Virus record (IMG/VR): IMGVR_UViG_3300036792_000058 | Coordinates: 1-55,069 of that record | Source: a virus | Direction: 5' to 3' (one strand) | Length of the DNA: 55,069 nucleotides | Shown here: positions 32,640-49,434 of the stretch, in pieces | How positions within the stretch are numbered: position 1 is the stretch's first letter | Layout: every line of letters begins with the position of its first letter | Notes under the pieces: generated by a model | The model's input: the letters and a program-made list of their open reading frames with translations, nothing else | The model's database searches: none | Told to the model about the DNA's origin: nothing | Translations under genes and position numbers: made by a program

Positions 32640-32760
32640 TGGAGCCGGAAGGTACCTGGTTATCCTTCTGAACAAAGGCCCGTAGGTGGTGGAACTCCAC
32701 TGAACCCGCAAGGGTGTGCTCACTAAGCAGGGTAAACGGTCAGGTCCGTACTACGCCCCA
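32640..32760 (+). ncRNA. Y RNA 1 (Ro-binding stem plus tRNA-like insert)
   Basis: Short outer helix TGG/CCA. The 5' strand AGCCGGAAGG is followed by inner helix ACCTGG (32654) with TCAGGT (32740), then TTATC; the 3' strand is TACTACGCC. The insert holds a T-arm-like hairpin (GTGG, loop TGGAACT, CCAC at 32686-32700), a GCAA-capped hairpin (32704-32715) and TGCT/AGCA (32717-32729). This is the same arm order as in units 3, 6 and 7. The outer helix is weaker than in other units. Confidence 0.65.
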
Positions 32761-32775
32761 ACAACTACATACTTC

Positions 32776-32875
32776 GAGCGAGCCGGACAAGTGCCGGTTA
32801 TCTGCGGGAGATCGGAGGCGGCCCAGATACTTGCTGGGTGCGCACGTAAAACCCGGAACTTCCTTACGCCCGCTC
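32776..32875 (+). ncRNA. Y RNA 2
   Basis: Outer helix GAGCG/CGCTC (32776 and 32871). 5' strand AGCCGGAC; inner helix AAGT-G-CCGG with CCGG-A-ACTT (one mismatch); then TTATC. 3' strand CTTACGCC. The insert has CCCAG/CTGGG with a seven-base loop, closed by TGCG/CGCA, and lacks a clear T-arm. The outer helix differs in sequence from the other units but still pairs. Confidence 0.75.
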
Positions 32876-32878
32876 ACA

Positions 32879-32950
32879 TGCCAGGTAGCCCAAGTAGAGG
32901 CAGCCTCCAATAAGAGGAACTAAGTGGCGGTGTCGAATCCGCCCCTGGCA
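32879..32950 (+). tRNA. Degenerate tRNA or tRNA-like RNA
   Basis: 72 bases with a perfect 7-bp acceptor (TGCCAGG/CCTGGCA), TA at 8-9, and arms in normal tRNA order. It departs from a working tRNA in three places: the D-loop lacks the GG pair, the CCTC/GAGG anticodon hairpin has only six loop bases (CAATAA), and the T-loop has an extra base (TGTCGAAT). No anticodon can be assigned. Either a decayed tRNA between Y RNA genes or a tRNA mimic. Confidence 0.5.
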
Positions 32951-32970
32951 CTAGACAACTAAACAGCGTG

Positions 32971-33101
32971 ACAGTGAGCCGGATGTTGCCCGGTTATCAA
33001 TGGTTCGATTCCACTACCAGGCTCCGCTTCGGCGTACGCCTGGTGCGCAAGGCGCGCATCCCTCGCAAGAGGGAGACCCGGACACGCCTTATGCCCACTG
33101 T
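32971..33101 (+). ncRNA. Y RNA 3 with permuted tRNA-like insert
   Basis: Outer helix ACAGTG/CACTGT. 5' strand AGCCGGAT; inner CCGG/CCGG with outward pairs; TTATC; 3' strand CCTTATGCC. The insert shows T-arm TGG-TTCGATT-CCA (33001-33013), a 7-bp acceptor-like helix ACCAGGC/GCCTGGT (33016 and 33038) capped by CGC-TTCG-GCG, then a D-arm-like GCGC/GCGC hairpin (33045-33057) and a GCAA-capped hairpin. T-arm, acceptor, D-arm is the order of a circularly permuted tRNA. Confidence 0.8.
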
Positions 33102-33109
33102 GCCTCTTC

Positions 33110-33176
33110 GGTGCGAGCCGAATGCGAGCGTTATCCTTCTAAGATAAAATGCTCAAAGTAGTCTTACGCCCGCACC
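33110..33176 (+). ncRNA. Y RNA 4, short form without tRNA-like insert
   Basis: Outer helix GGTGCG/CGCACC (6 bp). 5' strand AGCCGAAT, TTATC and 3' strand CTTACGCC are kept. Inner helix GAGCG/TGCTC. Only about 20 bases lie between the two inner strands, so this 67-base RNA has the Ro-binding stem but no tRNA-like module. Confidence 0.7.
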
Positions 33177-33188
33177 TACAACTTCAGA

Positions 33189-33267
33189 GCAGAGCCGGAA
33201 CAATGGGGTTACCCTTACCAAGGTCGAAAGATCAAGGATATTTCCCCGCCGTGACCTTACGCCCTGC
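33189..33267 (+). ncRNA. Y RNA 5, short form
   Basis: Outer helix GCAG/CTGC. 5' strand AGCCGGAAC, inner GGGG/CCCC, TTACC in place of TTATC, and 3' strand CCTTACGCC. The small insert has a CCTT/AAGG hairpin and GGTC-GAAA-GATC, a GNRA-capped hairpin. Weaker pairing than the others, but all signature blocks are in register. Confidence 0.6.
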
Positions 33268-33286
33268 CCACTAACTCAATAGCGTT

Positions 33287-33437
33287 GCGGAGAGCCGGAG
33301 TTGTCCGGTTATCACTTGTTAAACTGGGTGTTGCGGGTTCAAATCCCGTCCGGGAGCCTCAGAACTTCCGGTAGCTCAAGCTGGCAGAGCACTAGTCTGA
33401 GTCCCGAAAGGGAGCCGGCGGCATCTACGCCCTCCGC
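33287..33437 (+). ncRNA. Y RNA 6 containing a full circularly permuted tRNA module
   Basis: Outer helix GCGGAG/CTCCGC, 5' strand AGCCGGAG, inner CCGG/CCGG, TTATC, 3' strand CTACGCC. The insert folds as a permuted tRNA: ACTGG (33323, anticodon-stem 3' strand), T-arm GCGGG-TTCAAAT-CCCGT (33333-33349), acceptor 3' strand CCGGGAG (33350), an eight-base linker, acceptor 5' strand CTTCCGG (33365), TA, D-arm GCTC/GAGC with GG in its loop (33374-33390), and CTAGT (33392), which pairs with ACTGG. A TCCC-GAAA-GGGA hairpin follows. The Ro stem joins at the open anticodon end. Confidence 0.85.
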
Positions 33438-33449
33438 GCCCACAGCAGC

Positions 33450-33563
33450 GAGACGAGCCGGATGTACCTGGTTATCCTTGCGAAGAATGTGGTTCGAATC
33501 CACCGGGCCTTCGGGCTTAGGGAGTGTGGCTTCTCCAGTTCCAGGTATGCTTACGCCCGTCTC
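33450..33563 (+). ncRNA. Y RNA 7, nearest to the Ro gene
   Basis: Outer helix GAGACG/CGTCTC, 5' strand AGCCGGATG, 7-bp inner helix TACCTGG/CCAGGTA (33465 and 33541), TTATC, 3' strand GCTTACGCC. The insert has T-arm GTGG-TTCGAAT-CCAC (33489-33503), a shortened acceptor hairpin capped by TTCG (33507-33516) and D-arm GGAG/CTCC with GG in the loop (33521-33536). It has the cleanest pairing and lies 26 bases before the Ro start codon. Confidence 0.85.
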
Positions 33564-33589: not shown

Positions 33590-35197
33590 ATGGCCGACGC
33601 ACTCCGCTCGTTCAGGCACGGCGTTACCCCGCAGACCGAGCAGGCCCGTCCCGACGAAGTGAAGAACAACGCCGGCGGCTACGTGTTCGAGGTTGACGAC
33701 CGCACCCGGCTCAACCGCTTCCTGACCCTCGGCACCGAGGGCGGCACGTACTACGTGGACGAGCAGAAGCTCACCCGTGACAACGCCAAGCTCGTCGTCA
33801 AGATGAGCGAGGGCAGCGACCGCAAGCTGATCATGGACACCGTGATGGTGTCGCACGACGGGCGTGCCCCGCGTAACCAGCCTGCCCTGTTCGCCATGGC
33901 GGCTGCGGCCGGACTCGGCGACACTGCCTACCGGCACGAGGCGCTGGACTTCCTGCCCCAGGTCGCGCGCACCGGCTACCACTTCCTGGTCTGGGCCGAG
34001 TACATCGAGATGTTCCGTGGCTGGGGCCCGCAACTCGTCAAGGGCGTCGCGAACTGGTACAAGATCCAGTCGCCGGAAGACCTCGCCTACCAGGTGCTGA
34101 AGTACAAGCAGCGCGAGGGCTGGTCGCAGCGCGACCTCATGCGGCTGGCCAATGGTGCCGGCGGCCTCAAGCACGGGGCCACCTCAGCGCAGGCGGCTGT
34201 GTTCGATTACGTCATGAAGGGCCACTTCGACCCTGACGCGCTGCCGCCGGTCATCGAGGCCGCCCACAAGGCGCACGAGACCCGCGACGTTCGTGAGTGG
34301 GTACGGCTGATCGAGCGCAACCGCTCGCTGTCGTGGGAGATGCTGCCCTCCGAGGCGCTGGCCAAGGCTGAGGTGTGGGTCGCGCTGATCGACAACGGGA
34401 ACCTCCCGCTCGGCGCGCTGCTGCGCAACCTGTCGCGGCTGACCCGGCTGGGTGTCATCGCCCCGATGTCCACGTACAACGCGTGGATCGCGGCCCTGCT
34501 CACTGACAAGACGGCGATCCTCAAGGCGCGCATCCACCCGATCCAGGTGCTGCTGGCGCTCAAGACCTACGCCCTGGGGCACTCAATCCAGGGCACCTCA
34601 CGGTGGCTGCCGGTCCCGCAGGTCACTGACGCGCTGAACGAGATGTTCTACCTCGCGTTCGGCAACGTGGTGCCCTCGGGCAAGCGCACGCTGATCTGCC
34701 TGGACGTGTCCAGCTCGATGAACAACACCGTCTCCGGCTACGCGTTCAAGGCGCGGGAGATCTCGGCTGCCATGGCCCTGATCACGATGAAGACCGAGCC
34801 GCAGTACGCGGCGATGGCCTTCTCCCACCAGTTCGTGCCGCTAGGCATCTCCCCCGCGCAGCGCCTGGACGACGTGGTGAACTCGATCTCCAACCTGCCG
34901 TTCGGCCGGACTGACTGCGCGCTGCCCATGGCGTGGGCCCAGTACAACAACCTGGCGGTGGACACCTTCCAGGTCTGGACGGACAACGAGACCTGGTACG
35001 GGCCCAACGGCCACCCGCACGAGGCGCTGAAGAGCTACCGCCGGGCCACCGGCATCAACGCCCGGCTCCAGGTGGCTGCGGTCACCCCGACGCAGTTCTC
35101 GATCGCGGACCCGCTGGACCCCGGTCAGCTCGACGTGTCCGGGTTCGACGCGGCGGTGCCGAAGCTGATGGCCGACCACGCTCGCGGAGACATCTGA
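33590..35197 (+). CDS. rsr: Ro60/Rsr homologue (TROVE and vWA domains)
   Basis: 535 residues from ATG 33590 with AGGAAGGAA upstream. The N-terminal ~360 residues have the Ro HEAT-repeat ring pattern (LNRFLTLGTEGGTYYVDEQ, YHFLVWAEYIEMFRGWG, WSQRDLMRLANG). A von Willebrand A domain follows with an intact MIDAS (LDVSSSMN, Asp372). Ro binds misfolded RNAs in its central hole and Y RNA on its outer face. In bacteria Rsr works with Y RNA and exoribonuclease. The adjacency to a Y RNA array fits an Rsr ribonucleoprotein. Confidence 0.95.
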   Translation: MADALRSFRHGVTPQTEQARPDEVKNNAGGYVFEVDDRTRLNRFLTLGTEGGTYYVDEQKLTRDNAKLVVKMSEGSDRKLIMDTVMVSHDGRAPRNQPALFAMAAAAGLGDTAYRHEALDFLPQVARTGYHFLVWAEYIEMFRGWGPQLVKGVANWYKIQSPEDLAYQVLKYKQREGWSQRDLMRLANGAGGLKHGATSAQAAVFDYVMKGHFDPDALPPVIEAAHKAHETRDVREWVRLIERNRSLSWEMLPSEALAKAEVWVALIDNGNLPLGALLRNLSRLTRLGVIAPMSTYNAWIAALLTDKTAILKARIHPIQVLLALKTYALGHSIQGTSRWLPVPQVTDALNEMFYLAFGNVVPSGKRTLICLDVSSSMNNTVSGYAFKAREISAAMALITMKTEPQYAAMAFSHQFVPLGISPAQRLDDVVNSISNLPFGRTDCALPMAWAQYNNLAVDTFQVWTDNETWYGPNGHPHEALKSYRRATGINARLQVAAVTPTQFSIADPLDPGQLDVSGFDAAVPKLMADHARGDI

Positions 35198-36182: not shown

Positions 36183-36785
36183 ATGGCCGACAGCAACGAC
36201 GTTCTCCAGCAGTACTACCCGTGGCTGCGGAAGACGGCAGGTAACCTGATCGGCTTTGACGACCCGTGGCTGGACGACCTGATCCAGGAGGGGTACATCG
36301 CCATGTGGCGGGCCTACCAGGACTACGACCCGGACAGGGGCCCGCTGGTGCCGCGCCTGCTGTACTGCGCCCGCAAGCGCATGGTGAACGTCGCCTACGG
36401 GGCGCACAGGTACACGGGCCACGAGCCGGCACGCGGCCATGCGGAGGCGAAGTCTCCCCTGCACTATGACGAACTCCCAGACCGCGAGTACGTGATGCCC
36501 GTGACCAGGGACGACCCGTACGTTGAGCCGTCGCTGACCGATGCCCTGGCAGCCCTGCCGCCGAAGCAGCGCGCGTACGTGTTCCTGCGGTTCTGGATAG
36601 CCAACGGCGCGTTCGGCCGCACTCCCTCGGTCATGAGGCTGCGCGAGCAGTACCCGCTGCTGGGTAACGACAAGCTCTGGCTCAGGGCCCGCGACGCACT
36701 CCGTAAAGACCCACGGGTGCGGGTGCTAGCGGGACTTCCGCCAGTAGAAATAGATGAAGACACTGCGGCGTTAGGAATAACATGA
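36183..36785 (+). CDS. Sigma-factor-like transcription regulator
   Basis: 200 residues. The N-terminus (YYPWLRKTAGNLIGFDD, LDDLIQEGYIAMWRAYQDY, PRLLYCARKRM) fits sigma-70 region 2. A central DALAALPPKQRAYVFLRFW could be region 4 start, but the usual helix-turn-helix after it is divergent (TPSVMRLREQYPLLGNDKLW). Probably redirects host RNA polymerase to phage promoters. Confidence 0.7.
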   Translation: MADSNDVLQQYYPWLRKTAGNLIGFDDPWLDDLIQEGYIAMWRAYQDYDPDRGPLVPRLLYCARKRMVNVAYGAHRYTGHEPARGHAEAKSPLHYDELPDREYVMPVTRDDPYVEPSLTDALAALPPKQRAYVFLRFWIANGAFGRTPSVMRLREQYPLLGNDKLWLRARDALRKDPRVRVLAGLPPVEIDEDTAALGIT

Positions 36786-37057: not shown

Positions 37058-37146
37058 AGCACATCACCGAGCTGATCGCGTTCATCGCGGTCCTGACATT
37101 CGTCTTCCTGCTGGTCTTCCTGGCCCACAATCACTGGCACTTCTGA
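37054..37146 (+). CDS. 30-residue membrane peptide
   Basis: GTG overlaps the previous stop and its own TGA overlaps the next ATG. Almost all one TM segment (~6-24, LIAFIAVLTFVFLLVFLA) with a His/Trp end (HNHWHF). Coupling at both ends supports it being translated. Confidence 0.55.
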   Translation: MKHITELIAFIAVLTFVFLLVFLAHNHWHF

Positions 37147-38006
37147 TGAAGGAACACTACCGCCCGAAGCAGGAGAAGCGGTCGCTGGACAAGCACGCTA
37201 CCCCGTGGCACAAAGAGGTAGCCGAGCGGGGGACGATCCTGCTCACCGAGGTGGGCTCGGGCCTGCACGGCACGTCTGTCTCTGACCAGGACGACCGCGA
37301 CGAGATGGGCGTGTGCATCGAGCCGCCGGATGCCGTGATCGGCTTCAAGAGCTTCGAGCAGTACGAGTGGAAGACCGCCTGGGAGCGCGAGGGGATGCGC
37401 GCCAACCGCTCCGGTCCCGGTGACGTGGACCTGGTGGTCTACAGCCTCCGCAAGTGGATGCGGCTGGCGATGAACGGCAACCCCACCGTGCTGCTGATGC
37501 TGTTCGCCCCCAGTAACAAGATCGTCCGGCAGTCGGTCGAGGGCATCGAGCTGCGCCGGATGATGCCGCAGTACATCCTGAGCCAGCTCGCGGGCCAGCG
37601 CTTCATCGGCTACCTGCACAAGCAGCGTGAGAACCTGCTGTCTCACAATGGCAAGGGCCGGGACTGCACGCGGCCGGAGCTGATCGAGAAGTACGGCTTC
37701 GACACCAAGTTCGCCGGGCACATGATCCGGCTGGGCATCCAGGGGCTGGAACTTCTGAACACGGGCAAGATCACGCTGCCGATGACCTCGGCCGACGCCT
37801 ACCTGATCAAGGCGATCCGCACCGGGAACTACAAGATGGACGAGTGCCTGGCCATGGCAGAGATCCTGGAGGAAGACCTGGTTACCCTGATGGCCTCCGG
37901 CAAGTCCCCGCTGCGGCCGGAACCTGCCTACGAGGAGATCGACAAGTGGCTGGCGGCCATCTACCAGTGGCGCTGGACAACGGACGCAATCAACCAGGAG
38001 GAATGA
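37146..38006 (+). CDS. RlaP-like nucleotidyltransferase (DNA polymerase beta superfamily)
   Basis: 286 residues from ATG 37146. GSGLHGTSVSDQDDRDEMGV (~37-56) matches the GS...D-x-D nucleotidyltransferase motif as seen in the RlaP family, where the name means RNA ligase-associated protein. DVDLVVYSLRKWMRLAMNGNP and the HMIRLGIQGLELLNTG helix also fit that family. It lies 2 kb after the Ro gene, so a role in RNA end repair or tailing is an inference. Confidence 0.7.
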   Translation: MKEHYRPKQEKRSLDKHATPWHKEVAERGTILLTEVGSGLHGTSVSDQDDRDEMGVCIEPPDAVIGFKSFEQYEWKTAWEREGMRANRSGPGDVDLVVYSLRKWMRLAMNGNPTVLLMLFAPSNKIVRQSVEGIELRRMMPQYILSQLAGQRFIGYLHKQRENLLSHNGKGRDCTRPELIEKYGFDTKFAGHMIRLGIQGLELLNTGKITLPMTSADAYLIKAIRTGNYKMDECLAMAEILEEDLVTLMASGKSPLRPEPAYEEIDKWLAAIYQWRWTTDAINQEE

Positions 38007-43662: not shown

Positions 43663-45514
43663 GTATGGGCTGTCCACCAAGAAGCTCCTCTACGATCCTC
43701 GGGTCGCGCACCAGCTCCGCGAGCTGGCCGGCCTTCTTCTTCAGGGCCTCGCGCATGCGGCTCTCTACGCTGTTGCGGGCAACGATGTCGATCGCGTACA
43801 CCTGCTTGGCGTTCACGATGTCGTCGGCCCTGGACTCGCTCTGCTGGCGCTGCCAGAACGCCCACGTCGGCTCGATGAACACGATCGTGCTGCCCCGGTT
43901 GAGTGTAAGGCCCACCCCGCCGGCTGTCACGTTGCAGCACAGCAGGTCCAGCTCGCCAGCCTGGTACGCGTGACGGTAGGCGTCTTTCCTCTTCGCGGTC
44001 TGCTGGCCGGTGATGTACCCGACCCGGTAGCCGGCGGCGGCGGCGCGAGCGCCCGCGATGTTCAGGAGCTGGGTGTGCGGGGTGAACACCAGCAGCGGGT
44101 CGTCCTCGGTGTTGTGCTCGTCCATGATCGCCATCAGCTCGTCCACTTTCCAGGACGGCTCGCGCATGGTGACGTGGTACCTGGGGATCATCTCGCCGAA
44201 CAGCGGGTTCTTCTCCCGCGTCTCCAGTACCATCTCGATCTCAACGTCGCACGCGGAGCTGGCGAGCTGGGACAGGCGCTGGAGCTGGGCGAGGGTGCTC
44301 ATGACCTCCAGCGGCTCGTCGGTGTCAGGTATGTGCGCGATCATGTCGGCGGCCATCTCGTCGTAGGCCGCCCGGAAGGCCGGAGGGATATCCACGGCGC
44401 GCGTGGAGTAGCTGACCGGCGGCAAGTCGGGGTTCACGTCCCGCTTGGCTGTGCGGCGGTGTGAGCCCTGGAGGAGGGTGTAGAACTCCTCGCGGGTCTC
44501 CGGCTTCAGCCCGTCGATCTCGTCGCGGTACTCACCGTGGAAGCGGTCGGTGTACATGTCCTTGTAGCGGTCCTCGTCAGGGAAGGACCGCACGTCGAGC
44601 ACGCCCATTGCCCGCCAGAAGCCGCCCACGTCACGGGTGATGGGGGTGCCAGACATGGGGAAGACGTAATCGGTGACCCGCGCTACCTTGCCCGCCGCGA
44701 CCGACTGCGCCGTGGTGGTGTTGCACAGGGCGTGGGCCTCGTCCATGACGATCGTCTTCGGGACCATGAACTTCAAGAGCGCGGGCAGCTCGTCGTGCGC
44801 GTGCTTCATGTCCGTGCGGAAGGTGTTCCAGCTCGCGACGTAGACCTTGTACCTGGACGAGAGGTTCTTGCGCTTAGTACCACGGTAAGCCGCAGCCGGC
44901 CAGTCTGGAAATGCAGCTTCCAGCTCCTCCAGCCAGGAGCCGACAACGGAAGCCGGGCACACCACCAGTGCGGGAAACGGGTTCTCACCTCGGGCCTCCA
45001 GCTCGGCCAGGGTCAGCAGGGCGGTGCGGGTCTTGCCGGTCCTCATGTCGTCGCAGAAGAAGAACCGCTTGTTGAGCGCGCCGACGAACATCCCCGAGAG
45101 CTGGTGGGGCATGGGCGTCCAGTCGAGCTGGCTCACGTCGAACTTCAGGTCAGAGACCGACCCGTAGGCCGCGAACCGCCGCTCTACCTCGTCCGCGATC
45201 CACCTGTTGAGGGGCGGGTCCGGCCGCCAGCCGTAGTCCTTGTCCGCCATCAGCCGGGAGACCTGCGTGACGATCGCCCACGTCAGCGGTACCTTCACGT
45301 CGCCCGTGCCGTCCTTGGTCTTGGCAGGCAGGGCGGTCAGTCTACGGAGCTGGGCCATGACCTCGGACGCCTGCCACTCGTAGCCGTCCACGTGCAGGCG
45401 CATGTAGCGCGGGTGATCGCAGTTGCCGGTGGGGTGGTAGGCCGCGCACTCGATCTTGGCGTCCAGCACCGCCCGGGCGTAGCGCCCGTCAGACAGGTCT
45501 ACCACTGCCACCAC
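43652..45514 (-). CDS. SNF2-type DNA helicase/translocase (SF2)
   Basis: 620 residues. Walker A MRTGKT at ~157-162, DEAH box at ~258-261 (IVMDEAHAL), motif III-like SGTP, and the second RecA-like half with VFTPHTQLLN, GGVGLTLNRGSTIVFIEP and QQSESRADDI (Arg fingers). The first ~130 residues are a variable domain. Phage SNF2 proteins act in replication or remodelling of bound proteins. Confidence 0.85.
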   Translation of the reverse strand: MVAVVDLSDGRYARAVLDAKIECAAYHPTGNCDHPRYMRLHVDGYEWQASEVMAQLRRLTALPAKTKDGTGDVKVPLTWAIVTQVSRLMADKDYGWRPDPPLNRWIADEVERRFAAYGSVSDLKFDVSQLDWTPMPHQLSGMFVGALNKRFFFCDDMRTGKTRTALLTLAELEARGENPFPALVVCPASVVGSWLEELEAAFPDWPAAAYRGTKRKNLSSRYKVYVASWNTFRTDMKHAHDELPALLKFMVPKTIVMDEAHALCNTTTAQSVAAGKVARVTDYVFPMSGTPITRDVGGFWRAMGVLDVRSFPDEDRYKDMYTDRFHGEYRDEIDGLKPETREEFYTLLQGSHRRTAKRDVNPDLPPVSYSTRAVDIPPAFRAAYDEMAADMIAHIPDTDEPLEVMSTLAQLQRLSQLASSACDVEIEMVLETREKNPLFGEMIPRYHVTMREPSWKVDELMAIMDEHNTEDDPLLVFTPHTQLLNIAGARAAAAGYRVGYITGQQTAKRKDAYRHAYQAGELDLLCCNVTAGGVGLTLNRGSTIVFIEPTWAFWQRQQSESRADDIVNAKQVYAIDIVARNSVESRMREALKKKAGQLAELVRDPRIVEELLGGQPIHVK

Positions 45515-45669
45515 CTCCGGGGCAGGTAAAGCAGGCCCTTAACGGCAGACCTGTAGACGCGGGCACCGGGACTCCGGTTCCACCACTTCGGCCGCGCCGC
45601 GCACGGTCCCTCGTGCCCCGGAGTCCGGCTGCACCACCAGCCGCGCGGCGGCATCTTGCACTCAGGCAT
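45499..45669 (-). CDS. 56-residue Cys/Trp-rich basic peptide
   Basis: MPECKMPPRGWWCSRTPGHE, then GPCAARPKWWNRSP. The CxxxPxGHxGPC motif recurs in small actinophage proteins. Overlaps the helicase gene start by 16 bases and the GGQ gene by 8. Possible zinc knuckle. Confidence 0.6.
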   Translation of the reverse strand: MPECKMPPRGWWCSRTPGHEGPCAARPKWWNRSPGARVYRSAVKGLLYLPRRWWQW

Positions 45670-46027
45670 CTTCCACCGCCCACTTGCCGTCCACCTTGAC
45701 CTCGACCTTCAGGTTGTCCGGGATCATGTCCTTGGCGGCACGCTCCTCGGGCGAGGGAATGCCGCGACGCCTGTGCATCTCGCGCGTCAGCCAGATGCCG
45801 AACTTCACGTGCTCCGTCATGCGCCTGAACGCCAGCTTCTTGTTCTGGAGCTGTGACCTGTGCTCACGGCTCTCGCCTGTCGCACCTGACTCACGGTGGA
45901 TGATGCGCACGCCGCTCTCGGTCTTGTTCTGGTGCTGCCCGCCGGGCCCTCCCGACCGGAACGTCTGCACCGTGCAGTCCGCCAGGGTGACCGAGAACCA
46001 CGGCGTCTCCGAGTCCCGGCGGCCCAT
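45662..46027 (-). CDS. GGQ release-factor-like protein (ArfB/PrfH type)
   Basis: 121 residues. RSGGPGGQHQNKTESGVRII carries the GGQ motif (29-31), which hydrolyses peptidyl-tRNA. HRSQLQNKKLAFRRM and the basic rest match class I release factor catalytic domains without a codon-recognition domain, as in ArfB and PrfH. The C-terminus, however, is acidic (KVEVKVDGKWAVEDA), unlike the basic ArfB tail. A role in rescuing stalled ribosomes or damaged-ribosome repair is likely. Confidence 0.8.
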   Translation of the reverse strand: MGRRDSETPWFSVTLADCTVQTFRSGGPGGQHQNKTESGVRIIHRESGATGESREHRSQLQNKKLAFRRMTEHVKFGIWLTREMHRRRGIPSPEERAAKDMIPDNLKVEVKVDGKWAVEDA

Positions 46028-46327: not shown

Positions 46328-46621
46328 CTACAGGCCGTACCTGTGGTTACCGGGGTCGAAGCGGTGCCTGGCGGTCATCGCGCCCAGCTCGCGGGCGTAC
46401 CCTTCCAGGAACGCCAGCCAGCACTTGTCACCCTTCAGGCCGGTAGCTGCCTCGAACTCGTCGTGCGAAGGGCACGCGGTCTTCGGCTTCGGCGGCTGGA
46501 GGGATTCAATTGCCTGCCGCAGCTTCATGTCGAGCGTTGACCCGATCAGCCCCTGCCGCAGCGCCTTCAGCTCCTCCGCCGATAGCTGCATGAGCACCTG
46601 GCCGAAGGACGCGTCGGTCAC
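46328..46621 (-). CDS. Hypothetical protein
   Basis: 97 residues from GTG 46621, overlapping the previous stop (GTGA). TDASFGQVLMQLSAEELKAL, a Pro/Lys linker (LQPPKPKTACPSH), then AATGLKGDKCWLAFLEGYA. Two helical parts. No family recognised. Coupled to the proline-rich gene upstream. Confidence 0.6.
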   Translation of the reverse strand: MTDASFGQVLMQLSAEELKALRQGLIGSTLDMKLRQAIESLQPPKPKTACPSHDEFEAATGLKGDKCWLAFLEGYARELGAMTARHRFDPGNHRYGL

Positions 46622-47670
46622 TGCTGCTGGCCCTGGAGCCGCTGGAGCAGCGCCGACATCTCCGGGGTCATGGTCGTCGCGCCCTGTGGTGCCGGGGGAG
46701 CCGGTGGCTGCTGACCGTAACCGGGGACGGGCGGCGGAACGGGTCCAGCACCAGGCTGCGGCTGCGCATACCCCTGGGGTGGTGCAGGAGGGGCAGGCTG
46801 CTGCTGCGCCGCGACCCACGCCTGGTACTGCGGGTCATAGGCAGGCGGCGTCGTTGGCGGCGCAGAAGGCGCAGGGGGCGGGCTCGCCGCAGGGGCAGGC
46901 GGAGGGGTAAAGACGGCGGCAGGCGCAGGTGGCGGGGCAACTGCCGGGGCACCGCCCTGGGTAGGGTCCGCAGAGGTAGCGGTCGGTGCGTGGACAGGCT
47001 CCACGGGCACCGCGTTGTTCTCCCGGCCGTTCGGCGTGTACCTGAAGTCGAACAGGTTGGTCGGGTTGCCGTTGCCGTACTGCTTCTGGCCGGCCGAGAT
47101 CATGTAGAACTCAGCGCCGCCGAGCTGGCCGGACGCGAACGCCTTCGCGGGGTCCGCGATGCCCGCCGCCGCCATGGCCGCCTTGAACGCGTCGAACGGC
47201 ACGCCCTTGAGGTAGACGGTCACGTTGCCGTCCGAGAACGACTGCTGGGTGGCCGCCGGGTCGCTGCTGTTCACGAGCTGGCACGGCACCAGCGTCTGGA
47301 ACTTGGGCTTGCCCGTGGACTTGAACGTCAGCGGGGTGTTGAACTTGTCCGTCTGCTGGCGCACGTCCGTGGCGTTGATGTCGCGGGCGACGCGCAGGTG
47401 CAGCCACGATCCCTGGGGGCGCTGCGGGGTGAAGAACTTGGAGGTAGCAGCCCCGCCCCCGCCCGACGGCTGGTCTACGAAGTCCTCCAGTGACCCTCGT
47501 GCGAGGGCCGGCTGAGGCGGTGCCTGCTGGGCGTACTGCTGGGGCGGGGACTGCGGTGGGTAGCCCGGCTGAGGCTGGTAGTAAGTCTGAGGCGGGTAGT
47601 AAGTCGGCGCAGGAGTCTGAGGCGGGTAGCCGGGCTGAGGAGGATACGGAGGCTGGGCTGGGTAAGTCAC
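46618..47670 (-). CDS. Proline-rich protein with central folded domain
   Basis: 350 residues from GTG 47670, with AAGGGA upstream; a longer start near 47808 is less likely. N-terminal ~65 residues and C-terminal ~110 residues are Pro/Gln/Ala-rich and probably unstructured. A core (~65-230) has WLHLRVARDINATDVRQQTD, FQTLVPCQLVNSSD and GGAEFYMISAGQKQYGNGN. Single-stranded DNA binding or replication roles are possible, but not shown. Confidence 0.6.
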   Translation of the reverse strand: MTYPAQPPYPPQPGYPPQTPAPTYYPPQTYYQPQPGYPPQSPPQQYAQQAPPQPALARGSLEDFVDQPSGGGGAATSKFFTPQRPQGSWLHLRVARDINATDVRQQTDKFNTPLTFKSTGKPKFQTLVPCQLVNSSDPAATQQSFSDGNVTVYLKGVPFDAFKAAMAAAGIADPAKAFASGQLGGAEFYMISAGQKQYGNGNPTNLFDFRYTPNGRENNAVPVEPVHAPTATSADPTQGGAPAVAPPPAPAAVFTPPPAPAASPPPAPSAPPTTPPAYDPQYQAWVAAQQQPAPPAPPQGYAQPQPGAGPVPPPVPGYGQQPPAPPAPQGATTMTPEMSALLQRLQGQQQ

Positions 47671-47785
47671 GGTGCTAGTTCCCTTCGCGGGAGGCGCGAT
47701 TCGAGTGGCAAGTCCGTTGGGGAGCGTCATCCTCGCACGCTCCGGGGTGGTCTCCCCGCCACCACTTCCCAGCGGGGCAAACCCC

Positions 47786-47814
47786 ACTATACACACCAAC
47801 CCGGACATTTCAGC
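47786..47814 (-). promoter_or_regulatory. Candidate minus-strand promoter of 47670-46328 operon
   Basis: A minus-strand TATAGT (47786-47791 on plus) is the only good -10 upstream of the proline-rich gene. TGAAAT or GCTGAA lie 15 to 17 bases further up. The start codon is ~115 bases away, so a long leader is implied. Confidence 0.35.
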
Positions 47815-47889
47815 CGGAACGAGCTGTTACCTCAATCCACATGCGCGGGCGCGGAATAACCCCCGCCCAGGGGTGTTGTACAAGATGGC

Positions 47890-47994
47890 GCGGGGCCGGG
47901 CCTAGCCGAGACCTCCAACTCGGTGAAGGACTCCCTCGGCAAGGGCCCATAGGACATACATGACGATCCCTGAAGGGAGTCCGGCTGGCCCCGC
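47890..47994 (+). ncRNA. Structured RNA A of a tandem pair
   Basis: Terminal helix GCGGGGCC/GGCCCCGC (47890, 47987). After a six-base 5' bulge, AGCC (47904) can pair with GGCT (47983) on the continuous 3' side. A short hairpin follows, then a perfect 9-bp helix GGACTCCCT/AGGGAGTCC (47928, 47974) with a 37-base loop. Strand is uncertain because pairings are symmetric; plus is assumed. No known riboswitch family recognised. Confidence 0.6.
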
Positions 47995-48005
47995 TCCCCA
48001 CAGAC

Positions 48006-48104
48006 GCGGTAGCCGGGCCTAGCCTGATTAACCCCGGTTGAAGGGTGACCTGCCACGCGGGCAGACGACGCACGAGTCCGAAAGGTCACCCGGCTGGCTA
48101 CCGC
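48006..48104 (+). ncRNA. Structured RNA B of a tandem pair
   Basis: Same plan as RNA A: terminal helix GCGGTAGCC/GGCTACCGC (48006, 48096), shared 5' block CCGGGCCTAGCC (48013), AGCC/GGCT, hairpin TTAAC-CCCG-GTTGA, and 9-bp helix GGGTGACCT/AGGTCACCC (48043, 48083) with a 31-base loop containing TGCC/GGCA. Helix sequences differ from A but pairing is kept. It ends ten bases before the AGGAGG site of gene 48124, so it could act as a leader. Confidence 0.6.
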
Positions 48105-48123
48105 CCCCTAAACAGGAGGACAC

Positions 48124-48354
48124 ATGGCGAACTGCGAGCTGGGCAAGCACAGCAGCGACCACCGCAAGACGGAGCTGTACTGGGTGTGCCCGGCGTGCGT
48201 GAGCGCGTTCCACGGAGAGACGGCTAAGCTCACTGAGCTTGAGCTGCTGAAGGCTGAGCAGGCACTTGACACGCGCCGCCCGTGGTTCACGTTCGTCCCG
48301 TACGCGGCTATCGCAACCCTGGCCCTGGTGATAGTGCTCCTGGTGGCCCTGTGA
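48124..48354 (+). CDS. Small membrane protein with zinc-knuckle-like start
   Basis: 76 residues, AGGAGG upstream. ANCELGKHSSDHRKTELYWV and CPACVSAFHGE suggest a Cys/His metal site; TM ~54-75 (FVPYAAIATLALVIVLLVAL). First gene after the structured RNA pair. Confidence 0.6.
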   Translation: MANCELGKHSSDHRKTELYWVCPACVSAFHGETAKLTELELLKAEQALDTRRPWFTFVPYAAIATLALVIVLLVAL

Positions 48355-48647
48355 ACTACGACGAGCTGATGCGGATGGTATCCAGCTTCCCGAGGCCGAA
48401 GCGGTACGAGCTGCACTGCCACCCGAGCGTGATCGCGGCGATGAAAGACGCCTTCAAGTACACGGACGGCGTGCACCTCTTCCTGCGCAGCAACATGGTG
48501 TCCAGCATCGACGTGTTCAAGCACGATGACATGATGCCGGGCTGGTACGAGATCCGGTGCGACGGCGTAACCGTCAACGGCGGCTGCCTTACCCTGCCCG
48601 TCGAAGACTCGTCCCCGGACAGCCCTGATTCGTCCCCTCGCCCATAG
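48351..48647 (+). CDS. Hypothetical protein
   Basis: 98 residues from GTG (GTGA overlap). NYDELMRMVSSFPRPKRYEL, HPSVIAAMKDAFKYTDGVHLF, then YEIRCDGVTVNGG and a Ser/Asp/Pro end. Its 3' end overlaps the convergent exonuclease gene by 59 bases. No family recognised. Confidence 0.6.
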   Translation: MNYDELMRMVSSFPRPKRYELHCHPSVIAAMKDAFKYTDGVHLFLRSNMVSSIDVFKHDDMMPGWYEIRCDGVTVNGGCLTLPVEDSSPDSPDSSPRP

Positions 48648-49434
48648 CAGCGGGGTTGTAGAAGGGACAATATTGACAATCATCTTCTGACGGGATGGCC
48701 GGCACGTCCCAGAACGACATCGACCCGTCGATGATGAACTTCGCAAGCTGCTCGCGGATCACGGTCTTGGCCAGCACCTGCTCGACCTCACGCAGGTCCG
48801 ATATGGTGAGAGGCTTCTCCCACACGTACATGTCGTTGAGCGTGGACTGGGTGCGCGGCCAGGAGATCAGCACGATGCGCTGCACGTCGAAGCCCTTGTG
48901 CATGTACCCGAGGGCGTACAGCAGCATCTGGACATAGTAGTGGTAGGGCGGCCCGTGGCGTCGCAGCCTGGTCCTGATGGCCTCGGACTGCATCTTGTGG
49001 TCCCCGAGCGTCGCCGTCATGGTGTCGAACAGGTCAGCCGTGCCGGGGTGCGGAGAGACAGCCCCTGGGTCCGGGCAGACACGCTGCTCAGAGATCCACC
49101 GGCCCTGGCTCTTCCACTGACTGTGCCACTTAAACGCGTCGTCCATGAACGAGTGAAGCGCAGTACCAACGATTGAGGGCCAGGAGTCGTGCAGGCGGTT
49201 GCCACCGTGGCCGAACGTGACTCCAGCCATCTTCCCGACGAGCTGGCGGTCACAATGATGACCGAGTTCCGAGGGTCCGAGGTGGCGCTGGGTGTTGCGG
49301 GGCAGCCGGTCTGCGTACTCAAGGACGGCCTCTCTCAGCTCCTGGGCGTACCGCTGGGCCCACGGGGTGTTACCGTTCTGCACATACACGGGCGAGACGG
49401 TAGGCTGCGCCGCGAACTCTTCCAGCTTGTTCAC
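48589..49434 (-). CDS. Cas4/RecB-like exonuclease (PD-(D/E)XK, Fe-S)
   Basis: 281 residues. GPSELGHHCDRQL (Cys61), H94 in TALHSFMDDAF, D134 in TADLFD, D145-x-K147 in LGDHKMQ, and YYVQMLLYALGYM are the RecB-family nuclease motifs. Three late Cys (253, 256, 272 in CQYC and GCPG) with Cys61 can hold a 4Fe-4S cluster, as in Cas4 and AddB. Probably processes DNA ends in replication or recombination. No CRISPR seen nearby. Confidence 0.8.
   Translation of the reverse strand: MNKLEEFAAQPTVSPVYVQNGNTPWAQRYAQELREAVLEYADRLPRNTQRHLGPSELGHHCDRQLVGKMAGVTFGHGGNRLHDSWPSIVGTALHSFMDDAFKWHSQWKSQGRWISEQRVCPDPGAVSPHPGTADLFDTMTATLGDHKMQSEAIRTRLRRHGPPYHYYVQMLLYALGYMHKGFDVQRIVLISWPRTQSTLNDMYVWEKPLTISDLREVEQVLAKTVIREQLAKFIIDGSMSFWDVPAIPSEDDCQYCPFYNPAAMGEGTNQGCPGTSLRRAG

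Follow-up and report, generated by a model that had tools for sequence, protein, structure and literature searches.

Two related elements in tandem that look like structured RNAs ahead of a small phage operon

An intergenic region of a phage genome carries two related elements of about 100 nt, E1 and E2, which lie in tandem just ahead of two short genes of the same strand. The window, meaning the whole stretch of DNA analysed here, is the IMG/VR virus record IMGVR_UViG_3300036792_000058 at its full length of 55,069 bases, which is classed as linear and whose gene content resembles that of actinobacterial phages. In this line, the exonuclease encoded at 48589-49434 finds matches in 353 phage records, all of them with actinobacterial host names (e.g., Mycobacterium, Arthrobacter or Gordonia). 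The features of the locus are the following:

47876-47883, plus strand: TTGTACAA, unique in the window, ending 6 nt before E1; possible part of a promoter
47890-47994, plus strand: E1, predicted three-way-junction RNA (P1 of 8 bp, P2 of 6 bp, P3 of 9 bp)
47896-47907, plus strand: conserved 5' core of E1, CCGGGCCTAGCC (the full repeat has 13 nt, from 47895)
47981-47988, plus strand: 3' core of E1, CCGGCTGG, exact repeat
48006-48104, plus strand: E2, paralogue of E1, recovered by a model built from E1 alone
48013-48024, plus strand: conserved 5' core of E2, CCGGGCCTAGCC
48090-48097, plus strand: 3' core of E2, CCGGCTGG, exact repeat
48105-48119, plus strand: small predicted hairpin (CCCCT/AGGAGG) directly after P1 of E2, covering the Shine-Dalgarno sequence at 48114-48119
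48124-48354, plus strand: operon gene 1, 76 aa, scores as coding; Cys-containing N-terminus and one hydrophobic segment, as read from the sequence
48351-48647, plus strand: operon gene 2, 98 aa, scores as coding; its start overlaps the end of gene 1

Both elements contain GCCGGGCCTAGCC and CCGGCTGG at the same place in each folded unit, and exact copies of CCGGGCCTAGCC occur at 47896 and 48013 only, on either strand. An earlier note on this DNA had described two related structured RNAs arranged in tandem between genes, and the description holds. The outer helices are perfect, with 8 bp in E1 (GCGGGGCC/GGCCCCGC) and 9 bp in E2 (GCGGTAGCC/GGCTACCGC), and each element has an inner helix of 9 bp (GGACTCCCT/AGGGAGTCC in E1, GGGTGACCT/AGGTCACCC in E2), the sequences differing between the copies as the note had said. 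As a control, exact repeats of 10 nt or more lying within 250 nt of each other were collected throughout the window (67 per strand). Among these, E1/E2 alone adjoin perfect helices of 8 and 9 bp; for the others the helix minimum is at best 5 bp. A protein-coding reading was also considered and rejected. The minus-strand open reading frames that cross the elements (47810-48073 and 47832-48089) are not called genes by their coding score, and the repeats do not keep one frame, the first pair being spaced in frame (117 nt) and the second out of frame (109 nt), so a protein repeat is no explanation.

In a structure-guided alignment of the two elements all 48 cells form standard pairs. From the 24 shared pairs, eight differ between the copies on both sides, 16 are the same and none is broken, which bears out the covariation between the copies proposed earlier. 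These eight double changes were matched by 2 of 500 shuffles, a count that is not a probability, the alignment having two rows and being fitted to the structure; sliding the structure by one to three columns leaves at most one double change. Moreover, when 107,510 bases were searched with a covariance model made from E1 alone and its fold, E2 was recovered with 40.4 bits (E 1e-6) and no further match appeared at E <= 10. The covariation is strong but not decisive, since in the absence of a found homologue it rests on the two copies. Altogether, E1 and E2 look like real structured RNA.

The minimum-energy folds of the plus strand agree for both elements on a three-way junction, where P1 continues through GG/CU, a bulged G and CC/GG, and GCC/GGU closes P2, the three paired steps being conserved. 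A conserved UA precedes P2, a conserved GAA joins P2 to P3 and no linker is found between P3 and P1; in the minimum-energy fold of E2 the UA pairs too, making P2 longer. Within the ensemble of the leader (47890-48150), P1, P2, P3 and CC/GG reach pairing probabilities of about 0.9 or more, the weaker pairs being one end pair of P3 in E1 (0.73) and those of GG/CU, which run from 0.38 to 0.68 (0.67-0.68 and 0.38). The shared core on this strand amounts to -38.8 kcal/mol in E1 and -39.5 kcal/mol in E2. An alternative core advanced previously, with AGCC/GGCT stacked on the outer helix and a bulged GGGCCT, reaches -34.0 and -34.5 kcal/mol, i.e. 4.8-5.0 kcal/mol worse than the three-way junction, and is not retained. 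On the minus strand the core built from these pairs weakens to -33.4 kcal/mol for each element, as each loses two conserved G-U pairs. The full minimum energies point both ways: for E1 the minus strand is slightly lower (-54.7 versus -53.5 kcal/mol on the plus strand), and for E2 it is the plus strand (-49.4 versus -44.2 kcal/mol). Folding z-scores against shuffles were -2.89 and -3.02 for the plus strand and -1.91 and -0.95 for the minus strand. The plus strand is thus favoured, without certainty.

Downstream of E2, the AGGAGG lies 9 nt past the end of the element and 4 nt ahead of the ATG of gene 1, and its six bases have predicted unpaired probabilities of 0.15, 0.01, 0.01, 0.99, 0.01 and 0.03. 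Neither product of the operon has a relative in PHROGs, NCBIfam or phage records, nor, in the case of gene 1, in Pfam. The fold model of the gene 2 protein is too poor to use (mean pLDDT of 45.7), and its best match to a solved structure has an E of 0.14. On both sides, the genes flanking this plus-strand operon run on the minus strand. The sole close relative of the phage that was found is a 115,256-base contig (loci L027 and L028), with identities of 59% for the exonuclease and 63% for the helicase; protein searches with other queries gave no further relative. In L027, the flanking genes have counterparts that follow one another on a single strand, collinear and separated by small open reading frames; neither E1/E2 nor the two plus-strand genes are present, and the element models find no copy anywhere in the relative contig. 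Being absent together from L027 and opposite in orientation to their surroundings, operon and elements look like one cassette. One minus-strand frame across the elements ends in IEVT and resembles a 44-aa open reading frame of L027, suggesting that the frame is a leftover of the ancestral order next to the cassette and not a gene over the elements.

As to its promoter, a scan for sigma-70-like sites on the plus strand at the leader recognised none, so that a start site near E1 can only be inferred. The phage encodes a protein with sigma-70 region 2 (36183-36785, plus strand), and phage promoters may therefore differ from ordinary sigma-70 sites; that TTGTACAA may be part of a promoter upstream of E1 is a guess. 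A separate observation concerns GCCCCGCTGGGAAG, which is common to both phages (47758-47787 here and 9324-9353 in L027), lies downstream of a TATAGT promoter-like site and precedes the minus-strand gene at 46618-47730.

In agreement with the earlier statement that the elements match no known riboswitch, Rfam release 15 gave no match at the gathering threshold in the window, and the best permissive match in the region (18.2 bits) was to a microRNA family with a gathering score of 68. Pattern scans returned 25, 17 (second pattern) and 46 (third pattern) stretches from viral contigs and 35 from genome contigs. When 77 of these loci (25 + 17 viral, 35 from genome contigs) were scored with two element models, the best results were 21.9 bits (E 0.089) with model R1 and 23.6 bits (E 0.027) with model R2, both at one locus of a Caulobacteraceae MAG. 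This locus had been selected for carrying the motif, so its E-value is flattered, and the match is taken as chance, with 23.6 bits as against the 40.4 bits of E2 with the E1-only model. The 46 third-pattern loci together with six Ro-gene loci gave a best R2 score of 17.9 bits (E 0.44). Searches of whole records yielded two matches among 17 other phage or virus records (E 0.56 and 1.1) and one among four bacterial genomes (E 3.6). Across 394 genomes of one bacterial class none was found at E <= 0.01, a weak negative with 10 candidates scored per listed genome, and Blast against phages and plasmids gave short, weak matches only. These searches started from exact cores or from loci collected beforehand, and would miss relatives with changed cores. 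No description of the motif was found in the openly licensed literature; its string occurs in an unrelated synthetic oligo, according to an excerpt of PMC8058046. At present, E1/E2 are an orphan element with no convincing homologue found. Elsewhere in the genome, a 9-bp hairpin within 45506-45661 (GGACTCCGG/CCGGAGTCC) followed by GGCTG recalls the P3-GGCTGG of E1, and is reported by neither element model.

A phage gene at 33590-35197 codes for a Ro60-type protein (Ro60 vWA domain, 4.9e-57; TROVE, 2e-37), which scores 456 bits with the NCBIfam Rsr model, under the curated cut-off of 900; asking whether Ro binds E1/E2, as had been proposed, is therefore fair. Directly upstream of this gene lie seven Y RNA-like units (32640-33563, plus strand). 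In each, an outer helix of 3-7 bp leads straight into AGCC[GA][GA], GUUAYC comes 14-16 nt later, and UAYGCC immediately precedes the returning arm. The array region has eight AGCC[GA][GA] sites, one of which (AGCCGG at 33413) is without the other features and was left out, the count of seven being partly set by the features tested. AGCCGG is found in six of the seven units and AGCCGA in the other. Against Rfam YrlA one unit gives a weak match (35.2 bits, threshold of 69), and MAFFT could not align the unit bodies. Seven such units in one phage may be unusual. Several carry T-arm-like pieces (e.g., GGTTCGAATCC), and a tRNA-like stretch between two of them (32882-32955, plus strand; TGCCAGG...CCTGGCA and a T-arm-like piece) is not reported by ARAGORN. 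A Y RNA-like unit is also seen in the relative phage contig, on the minus strand of L028 near 120 (GAGACGAGCCGGAGCAACCCGGTTATC).

The earlier note was right that the minus strand of E1/E2 contains AGCCGG, which follows the outer helix P1 directly in both elements, and that TTATC is absent from them. Its hint at Y RNAs fails against the phage's own units: GUUAYC is found 14-16 nt after the AGCC start in neither element, versus seven of the eight AGCC[GA][GA] sites of the array, and UAYGCC immediately ahead of the 3' arm of P1 in neither, versus the same seven units. The 3' side of the minus strand, CUAGGCC(C), is partially like the CUACGCC of two units. E1 and E2 are thus rejected as ordinary Y RNAs. 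Bacterial and phage Y RNAs (YrlA, Ro ligands) share with them an outer helix formed from the ends, the adjoining AGCCGG (on the minus strand in E1/E2) and Ro in the same genome; on the other hand, the shared core of E1/E2 folds better on the opposite strand.

From the computed fold, the covariation between the copies and the position, we infer transcription of a leader, its binding by a factor and control of translation. It is with middling confidence that E1 and E2 are proposed to be the tandem folded 5' leader of the two-gene plus-strand operon, a leader whose junction would bind a factor and so set translation. Operon and leader would form a small cassette inside an oppositely oriented gene cluster, and transcription would start just upstream of E1. 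A protein or a small molecule probably binds at the conserved junction, and the Shine-Dalgarno hairpin directly following P1 of E2 would relay this binding to the translation of gene 1. The leader ensemble shows no plain switch; the 3' strand of E2, once freed, could pair with the start region, with no sign that this pairing competes. As the operon products have no known function, they suggest no ligand.

The main rival holds that E1 and E2 are released as stable noncoding RNAs, acting as small RNA, as sponge or as an element that binds RNA polymerase, like put of phage HK022. Free-standing RNAs would look much the same as a leader, and the closed P1 helices at the borders and the unstructured spacer between the copies suit separate units; against this, no terminator was found after E2 and a Shine-Dalgarno sequence follows within 9 nt, so this rival is judged unlikely. 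Its put-like form has a precedent in putL and putR, which, according to an excerpt of PMC9378689, are phage RNA elements of ~70 nt each, placed near promoters and present as two related copies per genome, as E1/E2 are. In the same excerpt each put RNA consists of two stem-loops and the two lie behind different promoters, whereas E1/E2 are two predicted three-way junctions in one presumed leader; moreover, an operon of 0.5 kb would have little need of antitermination. The two tandem stem-loops of a put element are thus not predicted in E1/E2.

Considerably smaller is the chance that E1/E2 act through their minus-strand transcripts, as divergent Ro ligands that would give this phage Y RNAs of a second kind. 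The Ro gene, the seven units and the reading P1-AGCCGG, as in six of these, speak for it together with the partial likeness at the 3' side, but the missing GUUAYC and UAYGCC and the less distinctive folding of the minus strand do not, and AGCCGG has a frequency of about one per 1,000 bases on each strand of the window, making the match modest evidence. The least likely explanations are two. The long inverted repeats, lying between divergent genes, could be hairpins acting at the DNA level in replication, in recombination or as target of a DNA-binding protein, but conserved G-U pairs in a junction are more in keeping with RNA and no recombinase gene was recognised next to the elements, which makes this reading improbable. 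Finally, a chance fold coinciding with a chance repeat might be suspected from two copies with no homologues found in G+C-rich DNA; the uniqueness of E1/E2 among the 67 repeats, the eight compensatory pairs with none broken and the specificity of the E1-only model leave it very improbable.

The proposed leader resembles tandem riboswitches or tandem leader aptamers, a kind more than one family, which also place two related domains of ~100 nt in series, each closed by P1. A Shine-Dalgarno hairpin follows directly here, in a presumed 5' leader. Unlike them, E1/E2 have no family match at permissive thresholds, no ligand clue and no homologues found. A conserved fold does lie upstream of a gene, with conservation between the two copies. 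More tentatively than the leader itself, E1 and E2 may be the founding members of a phage RNA class not described so far, a tandem three-way junction that would serve as a cassette leader recognised by a phage or host factor, with CCGGGCCUAGCC / GAA / CCGGCUGG as its invariant core. To our knowledge, few structured leader RNAs have been described for actinobacterial phages. A covarying tandem RNA with no relatives found offers a small, concrete target for structure probing and reporter tests, and its presence in a phage that has Ro and arrayed Y RNA-like units as well contributes to the view of phages as investing in control by RNA.

The phage is rich in RNA-handling genes, with a RlaP and a release-factor-like protein in addition to Ro and the Y RNA-like units. 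The short RF-1 domain protein (45662-46027, minus strand) has the release factor PrfH as its top NCBIfam model, below the cut-off of this model. The RlaP-type RNA-repair nucleotidyltransferase (37146-38006, plus strand; PF10127, 1.9e-28) shows DNA similarity to genes of Gordonia phages.
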